Below, piece by piece: positions 51,700 through 53,058 of a DNA stretch of 64,000 bases. The notes under the pieces were generated by a model, which saw nothing but the letters and a program-made list of their open reading frames with translations, searched no databases and was not told where the DNA came from. This DNA comes from Synechococcus sp. C9. Its GTDB lineage: Bacteria > Cyanobacteriota > Cyanobacteriia > Gloeomargaritales > Gloeomargaritaceae. The stretch's first letter is position 1, and the number at the start of each line of letters is the position of its first letter. The position numbers and the translations under genes were made by a program. The stretch lies in NCBI RefSeq assembly GCF_022984075.1, contig NZ_JALAAD010000001.1, forward strand, positions 434,001 to 498,000, read 5' to 3'.

Positions 51700-51780
51700 T
51701 GTATTTATATAATGTTTACGTTTGCAATTGGTTCCTGAAATACTAGTTGGGCGACAGGAATGCCATAGTGGAGGGGTAAT

Positions 51781-52980
51781 ATGGGACAAGAAAAAGTATT
51801 CCAAAGACACCAGCAACGCGTCTTTTTCAAGAGTCAAGACCTTGATTTCTACCTGGTATGGGCAATGGGCTTCTCGACCTATCAAGGGGCTGAACTTGGA
51901 GAATGCTTGCGTATTGCATCACAAATCAACGAGAGTGATCTGGCAAGCTGGGTAAGAGCATGGAAAACGATGGCCGCTCACCTGGAACAAGTGGCTGCGG
52001 TTATGCAGACCAAGGGTCACCTAGTGAGTGCCCATGAAACCTACCTGCGCGCGATGACCTACTACCGCTTCGCCTCCGTTTGTCAACCTCCTCAAGACCC
52101 CGATTTGCCTGCAACCTGGCAAAGGATGAGGGAGTGTTTTCGCAAGGTGGCCGAGTTGTCCAATCCACCCATCACCCCGCTTCAGATACCCTTTGAGGGC
52201 AAGACGCTCACGGGTTACTTTATGCGACCCGCTATGTCGGGCACGAAGCGCCCGACCTTGCTGGCAGTCAGCGGCGGCGAAGGTGTGGCCGAAGATATGT
52301 ATTTCTTCGGTGGCTTAGCTGGCATTCGGCGCGGTTATAGTGTCTTGATGTTTGAGGGGCCAGGACAAGGTCAGGCAATCCTGGATGGAATGACCGTTCG
52401 TCTAGACACCGAAGTAGTTGCAAGACAGATTGTAGACTTTGCATTAGAGTTGCCCGAAGTAGACGGTAAGCGCCTGGCGATTTACGGGATTAGCGGCGGC
52501 GGCTATGCGGTCACAAGAGCCGCCGCTTTCGAGAAGCGAATCAAGGCATGTATTGCTAATCCGCCAATCATTGATCTTCCGCGCGTTTTGCAGTCGGAAT
52601 GGGGTGCCTTCCAGAAAGCCCCAAATACAGTCAAGGAGATGGTGCTGGGAATTCTTACCCGCCGAAATCCCGTGGCGCGGCTTGCATTGAGCAAACTTCT
52701 CTGGTCGGCGGGCGTTGACCGAATTACTGAATATATGATGAAAGTCAGCGAGGCACGCGTTGAGGTGGAGAATATCGAGTGTGCCCTGCTATGCATGGTT
52801 GGTACTGCTGATCCAGTAGAGTGTATTCGGCAAACGCACGAGTGTTACGACCGACTGCGAGGGCAAAAAGCTATCCGCGTATTCACCCCCGAAGAAGGTG
52901 CCGACGCCCATTGCCAGGTGAACAACTTGAGTCTTTCTAATCAAACGCTGTTTGATTGGTTAGATGAGGTTCTAATGTAG
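51781..52980 (+). CDS. Alpha/beta hydrolase, FrsA/2,6-dihydropseudooxynicotine hydrolase-like (cassette gene)
   Basis: The 399-residue protein has an N-terminal helical cap (about 1-135) and an alpha/beta hydrolase domain. The nucleophile elbow is GISGGGY (near residue 239), the oxyanion region LLAVSGGEG, and the catalytic Asp and His are likely in VGTADPVECI and EGADAHCQV. Codon use (CGC, GCG, GAG) differs from the CGG/CCC-rich neighbours. ATG 51781 follows ggagggg. It is the only gene of the apparent integron cassette. Substrate unknown. Confidence 0.85.
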   Translation: MGQEKVFQRHQQRVFFKSQDLDFYLVWAMGFSTYQGAELGECLRIASQINESDLASWVRAWKTMAAHLEQVAAVMQTKGHLVSAHETYLRAMTYYRFASVCQPPQDPDLPATWQRMRECFRKVAELSNPPITPLQIPFEGKTLTGYFMRPAMSGTKRPTLLAVSGGEGVAEDMYFFGGLAGIRRGYSVLMFEGPGQGQAILDGMTVRLDTEVVARQIVDFALELPEVDGKRLAIYGISGGGYAVTRAAAFEKRIKACIANPPIIDLPRVLQSEWGAFQKAPNTVKEMVLGILTRRNPVARLALSKLLWSAGVDRITEYMMKVSEARVEVENIECALLCMVGTADPVECIRQTHECYDRLRGQKAIRVFTPEEGADAHCQVNNLSLSNQTLFDWLDEVLM

Positions 52981-52992
52981 CGTCAAAGTGCC

Positions 52993-53058
52993 GCCCAACC
53001 TGCGCTTGCACCTGACGCCGCTCCGCTGCGCTTCGCGGCGCAGGTGAAGCGCAAGCCG
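52993..53058 (+). other. attC-like recombination site
   Basis: After R'' (GCCCAAC, 52993-52999), TGCGCTT (53001-53007) pairs with AAGCGCA (53047-53053), CACCTG (53009-53014) with CAGGTG (53041-53046) and CGCCGC (53016-53021) with GCGGCG (53035-53040). G53008 and A53015 are unpaired and on the same side, as extrahelical bases in attC sites are. Total stem is 19 bp with a 13-base loop. The site closes with G53058. Confidence 0.8.

Follow-up and report, generated by a model that had tools for sequence, protein, structure and literature searches.

In the terms of IntegronFinder, single and clustered attC sites that lie without an integron integrase are called SALIN and CALIN, respectively (PMC9024848; PMC12690207), and elements with a single attC can be true (PMC9024848). 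Loot et al. (Nat Microbiol 2024, doi 10.1038/s41564-023-01548-y), whose work is cited here as it is presented in PMC11023631 and PMC12901181, described secondary sites, termed attG, at which cassettes insert. In Cyanobacteria, intI was reported earlier (PMC2426708) and a model of cyanobacterial attC sites has been built (PMC8352920). These reports, together with our own survey, do not support the view, taken in an earlier note on this DNA, that integrons are unusual in cyanobacteria. Strong IntI matches were found in 41 of the 386 cyanobacterial genomes sampled (22 of the 41 over the curated cut-off), and attC sites were found in 44 of 194; cyanobacteria are a regular home of integrons. Among the papers searched, none dealt with the host genus and integrons together.

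Here, we analysed a 64-kb stretch of the chromosome of Synechococcus sp. C9 (the window, to which all plain coordinates below refer) in which a hydrolase gene is followed by an attC site. The host genome (G000) was compared with a sister species (G002), with another relative of the genus (G004) and with further relatives; psaB in the host and psaA/psaB in the genus are those of a photosynthetic cyanobacterium. We read the unit of gene and attC (51747–53058) as a single integron gene cassette inserted by an integron integrase at an attG-like secondary site, most likely by the genus's own IntI, and put the probability of this reading at about 0.85. With one attC and no other attC or intI nearby, and with no intI and attI beside it to make a complete integron, the cassette is a SALIN in IntegronFinder terms. 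Like SALIN and CALIN elements in general, it consists of an attC with its gene that is recognised by a covariance model and has no integrase close by; it goes beyond them in having an empty site in the sister species and a decayed intI elsewhere on the same chromosome. As far as attG insertion is presented in the sources above, the likeness lies in a cassette joined to the chromosome outside attI and attC with the crossover after G, other lone cassettes of the genus sitting at G|TT, and the difference in natural events in a cyanobacterial genus, a G|CT junction in the window and many cassettes over one chromosome. Insertion of this attG-like kind is thus already known; what is unusual here is the G|CT right junction and the attC itself, which is short, GC-rich and of foreign type.

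Layout of the hydrolase cassette

The left target-site end, CTAG (51743–51746, + strand), is followed directly by the cassette, and from the sequence the crossover would fall after G51746. The motif GTTGGGC (51746–51752, +) is made up of the target G and TTGGGC, the 5' end of the cassette, which serves as R' box in the circular form; it is the exact complement of GCCCAAC at 52993–52999. The cassette gene, identified from the ORF list and by homology, encodes an alpha/beta hydrolase of 399 aa (51781–52980, +), starts 34 nt past the crossover and has a ribosome-binding site, GGAGGGG (51769–51780, +; ...gtGGAGGGGtaatATG), just 5' of its ATG. The attC (66 nt as integrated, 52993–53058, +), recognised by its fold and by covariance models, opens 12 nt past the stop codon on the same strand and comprises R'' (52993–52999), an L'' arm with extrahelical G53008 and A53015, a GC-rich loop, an L' arm and the final G53058. 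The whole unit measures 1312 bp, and the right target-site end, CTAGGAGG (53059–53066, +), gives G|CT in place of the G|TT of most lone cassettes.

On the left, the cassette is neighboured by a rhodanese-like gene (51027–51401, − strand) that is kept in G002, and the intergenic region between them holds a MITE (TATAGCAATCC ... GGATTGCTATA, 51600–51702) that is not at this place in G002. On the right lies tRNA-Asn (GTT; 53128–53201, −), which adjoins recF in six relatives; recF is also the next neighbour here, beyond the tRNA gene. For the ~100-bp MITE family with TATAGCAATCC ends, 16 matches to the ends were counted in the window where 0.85 would be expected (copies at 19463–19563, 21189–21289, 30172–30272, 49666–49766, 51600–51699 and others), and a second family (~117 bp) is represented at 30928–31023.

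The top-strand fold of the attC has three helices (7, 6 and 6 bp) stacked on one another, G53008 and A53015 bulge out of the same arm, and the DNA fold z is about −3. The complementary boxes, the 66-base site and the 19-bp stem with two same-side extrahelical bases were thus found just as the earlier note had described them. Since the integrated right end reads G|CTAGGAGG, and the circular form ...GCAAGCCG|TTGGGC, the R' box exists only in the circular cassette, where the whole 72-nt site folds with R'' and R' paired and ends in GTTGGGC.

Recognition of the attC site by models that exclude it

A mechanical scan for boxes and stems gave four combinations in the window against 0–4 (mean about 1.6) in shuffled windows, the site at 52993 scoring highest among those in the window. 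Box and stem alone are within chance, and we therefore used an attC-specific test with models that exclude this site; the scan itself, hardly above chance, was dropped as evidence. Reference attC sites were taken from a strict search beside intact-looking cyanobacterial intI genes, which gave 0 matches in about 650 kb of shuffled strand. Covariance model R1 was built from 8 cyanobacterial attC sites and model R2 from 42 sites (from model matches), neither containing the site under study. A first mixed alignment (A1), in which the 3' arm was misaligned and the query included, was replaced by A2, with the query excluded. In the R2 alignment, which was fitted to structure, 86% of the cells were paired, and 201 double changes were counted against a mean of 80 for shuffled and 42–72 for slid versions.

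Both models returned 52993–53064 as their sole match in the 64 kb, R1 with 25.8 bits (E 6e-5) and R2 with 27.2 bits (E 2e-5). Against the whole genome, the R2 score of 27.2 bits corresponds to an E of 0.001 and is among the weakest matches. The bulge layout (G, 6 bp, A) is that of attC sites beside cyanobacterial intI, and this attC-specific layout is beyond chance. Together with the exact complement of R' and R'', these matches bear out the proposal that this is a genuine gene cassette with an attC. At 66 nt and 73% GC the site is unlike the 86-nt sites dominant in the genus; it belongs to a short, GC-rich minority type that is also present in G002 cassettes (L236:13114, L238:4835, L241:5515). 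No Rfam model matched the site, and the plasmid collection held no near-identical attC.

Dispersed cassettes in the host and its relatives

R2 found 13 attC sites in the host (about 12 besides that of the window), 28 in G002, 50 in G004 and 0–10 in the other relatives. The host matches are mostly dispersed, the next nearest to the window site lying more than 300 kb away. Besides the arrays on the side of psaB, the genus contains many lone or paired attC sites, about 30 of them dispersed in G004. Dispersed lone cassettes were seen in G004 (L246–L271), G002 (L236–L245) and G000 (L203–L207, L233–L235). Four attC sites lie on C2, the 87-kb second replicon of the host (L203:13921–18512), to which the plasmid collection held no match.

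For several of these cassettes the empty site could be found. One G004 cassette splits an IS transposase gene at GGATG|TTCAAG (G004:C1:1253251; L256, about 3752–3839), and an uninterrupted IS copy, 97% identical, elsewhere in G004 (L273) is a precise empty site. Opposite the G004 cassette at 432198, G000 has the empty sequence CTTCTG|TTCCAA, and for two further cassettes the flanks adjoin each other in a relative: those of the G004 cassette at 2174013 in G000, though not base-precise, and those of the cassette at 2240919 in G002. An orthologous ectopic site, cagtaG|TTATGT ... G|TTGGGCggcg, located after a stop codon, carries a pair of cassettes in G000 and a single, different one in G002, within flanks that are 92–95% identical (L294, G000:C1:1178500–1182000; L295, G002:C1:653500–656500); cassettes have turned over at this locus outside an integron.

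The left junctions of the lone cassettes cluster at taG| and atG|, and the right junctions are mostly G|TT; the left ones often read ..taG|TT and sometimes come just after a stop codon. The left junction of the window cassette, actaG|, fits this pattern of the genus, and its right junction, G|CT, differs. Because many junctions rest on one candidate box each, a target preference is a lead and not a result.

Origin of the hydrolase gene

The esterase-like cassette gene encodes an FrsA-like alpha/beta hydrolase with the nucleophile motif GISGGG. Among solved structures the nearest is SMU_737 (3fnb), an annotated acylaminoacyl peptidase, and the next is 2jbw, a 2,6-dihydroxypseudooxynicotine hydrolase. 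The closest relatives are encoded in MAGs of Thermoflexales (Chloroflexota), with 75% and 82% identity (82% for a partial sequence). The gene is absent from all seven other genomes of the genus and family that were searched and, counting the host, only 3 of 386 cyanobacteria have it, in keeping with its earlier description as imported. No attC was found next to the Thermoflexales relatives, so that no donor of the cassette form came to light. Viral contigs held no relative of the hydrolase, and a scan for sigma-70 promoters in the region upstream of the gene found none. In G335, an attC (L194:6744–6822) beside a 37%-identical hydrolase homologue was rejected as a candidate, since it belongs to a restriction-type gene on the other strand; the end of that attC abuts the 3' end of the convergent homologue.

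Integrase remnants beside psaB

As the earlier note had observed, neither intI nor attI is present in the 64-kb window. Over the genome this absence stood only in part: a truncated intI lies directly after psaB, about 2.27 Mb from the cassette, as a 94-residue C-terminal piece (L001:1498–1782, G000:C1), and to it come the dozen or so further attC sites. No intact intI was seen in the host genome, and no attC lies beside the psaB remnant. The integron-integrase model (TIGR02249) scores this piece 151.6, against 90.8 for XerD. G002 has a longer C-terminal piece in the corresponding position beside psaB (a 146-codon frame, L191:6034–6474), which scores 202.9 against 88.7 and in which the IntI-specific LPYALKQKYPHAD...WQYVFP segment is preserved; the integron-integrase model fits the intI fragments far better than the XerC/XerD models do. 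A transposase gene is situated directly upstream of the G002 remnant. In G004, two N-terminal copies of intI, their interiors masked, were found beside psaB (L162:4784–5545 and 9174–10043); intI is duplicated there with several genes between the copies.

At the intI loci of G002 and G004, attC sites lie 5' of intI in the canonical integron orientation, the cassettes reading away; G004 also has a putative attI junction, ggagatacatatG|TTGGGC, about 140 bp upstream of the intI start. The intI copies and remnants beside psaB, the attC sites and the putative attI together indicate that the genus had a chromosomal integron at this place, which has decayed in G000 and G002. G004 and G002 resemble the sedentary chromosomal integrons of cyanobacteria in that copies or remnants of intI adjoin psaB and the cassettes are read in the direction away from it; the host differs in retaining a C-terminal intI remnant without adjoining attC.

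The presence of an intI remnant at the same locus in the host and of intI pieces in two relatives bears on the most serious rival explanation, in which a visiting integrase, transient and carried by a plasmid or mobile integron, inserted the cassette and the foreign-type attC came along with it. Such a visitor would fit an attC that is shorter and more GC-rich than the 86-nt genus type, a Chloroflexota-like gene and the four cassette sites on the 87-kb replicon C2. However, the short GC-rich type occurs among the G002 cassettes as well, and ..taG| is also the left junction of other lone cassettes in the genus. Since the attC is nevertheless short, GC-rich and of a minority type, a visiting integrase stays a possible agent, if an unlikely one, and we favour the IntI of the genus.

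An empty allele in the sister species

Both flanks of the cassette are kept in G002 (left, 93.6% identity over 1.8 kb; right, 91.2%), and the 1312-bp unit is absent. The left flank is conserved up to GAAATA(C). The window allele reads GAAATACTAG|cassette|CTAGGAGGA-TTTGACAATT and that of G002 reads GAAATA, an element of ~117 bp, and then CCATAACGG-TTTGACAATT. This element is a multi-copy MITE, also present elsewhere and unrelated to the cassette; thus, the cassette is absent in G002, and the position of the junctions is known to within about 12 bases but not exactly. The prediction of an insertion site outside an integron that is empty in relatives was therefore borne out by G002, while the exact pre-insertion sequence, proposed as ctaG/ctagg, was confirmed only in part because up to about 12 junction bases differ between the two species. 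Recognition of the attC by independent models and the absence of the cassette from G002 demonstrate a real single gene cassette outside an integron.

The attG target consists of G, then A or T, then T (G|WT). Set against this pattern, the window has taG| on the left and an off-pattern G|CT on the right, most other lone cassettes having G|TT; a G|CT right junction was seen in only two other attC matches.

The empty allele also weighs on the idea that the cassette is all that is left of a multi-cassette cluster (CALIN) once present here. Arrays do shrink by excision, and the ectopic locus with two cassettes in G000 and one in G002 is a case in point, but G002 has neither a cassette nor an attC here, its flanks join within about 12 bases and the window holds no second attC, so that we regard a lost cluster as improbable. 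A chance hairpin beside a gene gained in some other way, with coincidental boxes, is far less probable and is already largely refuted: one or two box and stem combinations are expected per 64 kb and a hairpin could serve as terminator, yet the stem has no T-run on its 3' side, a model trained without the site matches nothing else in the window, the bulge positions equal those of attC sites beside cyanobacterial intI and the empty site in G002 ends at the boxes to within about 12 bases. Least credible of all is insertion in the manner of a transposon, duplicating 4 bp of the target (CTAG at 51743–51746 and 53059–53062), since apart from CTAG on both sides the unit has no terminal inverted repeats and no transposase, its 5' end complements an internal box (R'') as in an attC and not a transposon, and no other copies with different 4-bp duplications were found in the eight genus and family genomes searched with the protein.

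Discussion

Insertion by an integron integrase, which we prefer, would have taken an ordinary intergenic region between the rhodanese gene and tRNA-Asn as its target. The attC of the circular cassette is expected to fold on the bottom strand (GCCCAACGGCTTGCGC...GCAGGTTGGGC), with the bulged bases setting polarity; IntI would then cut at G|TTGGGC and at chromosomal ...CTAG|, and resolution would leave G|TTGGGC on the left and attC...G|CTAGGAGG on the right. Of the possible integrases, the genus's own IntI, whose gene lies beside psaB, is the likeliest; in the host it would since have shrunk to its 94-residue C-terminal remnant, and because of this loss the cassette can probably no longer move unless an integrase comes in from elsewhere. 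Several observations count against this explanation, namely the G|CT right junction, the short GC-rich attC with its weak score, the G002 junction blurred by the MITE and some 12 differing bases, the host genome in which no intact intI was seen and the masked interior of the G004 intI.

The interest of these data lies less in the single cassette of the window than in the dispersal throughout the genus, with empty sites. On present evidence the odds are about even that the integron of the genus broadcasts cassettes, placing tens of single ones at secondary sites over the chromosome and on the second replicon and preferring its own kind of target (G|TT preceded by A/T, in many cases immediately behind a stop codon), that ectopic loci gain and lose cassettes after species divergence, and that the integrase is then lost, which would fix the cassettes in place. 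The locus and its relatives provide natural, datable secondary-site insertions, together with empty sites, from a phylum whose role as integron host is often overlooked, and the dispersed sites (about 30 in G004) make target preference and cassette turnover measurable in nature. These results suggest that a chromosomal integron can seed genes over the whole genome and then decay, leaving behind cassettes that resemble ordinary horizontally acquired genes.
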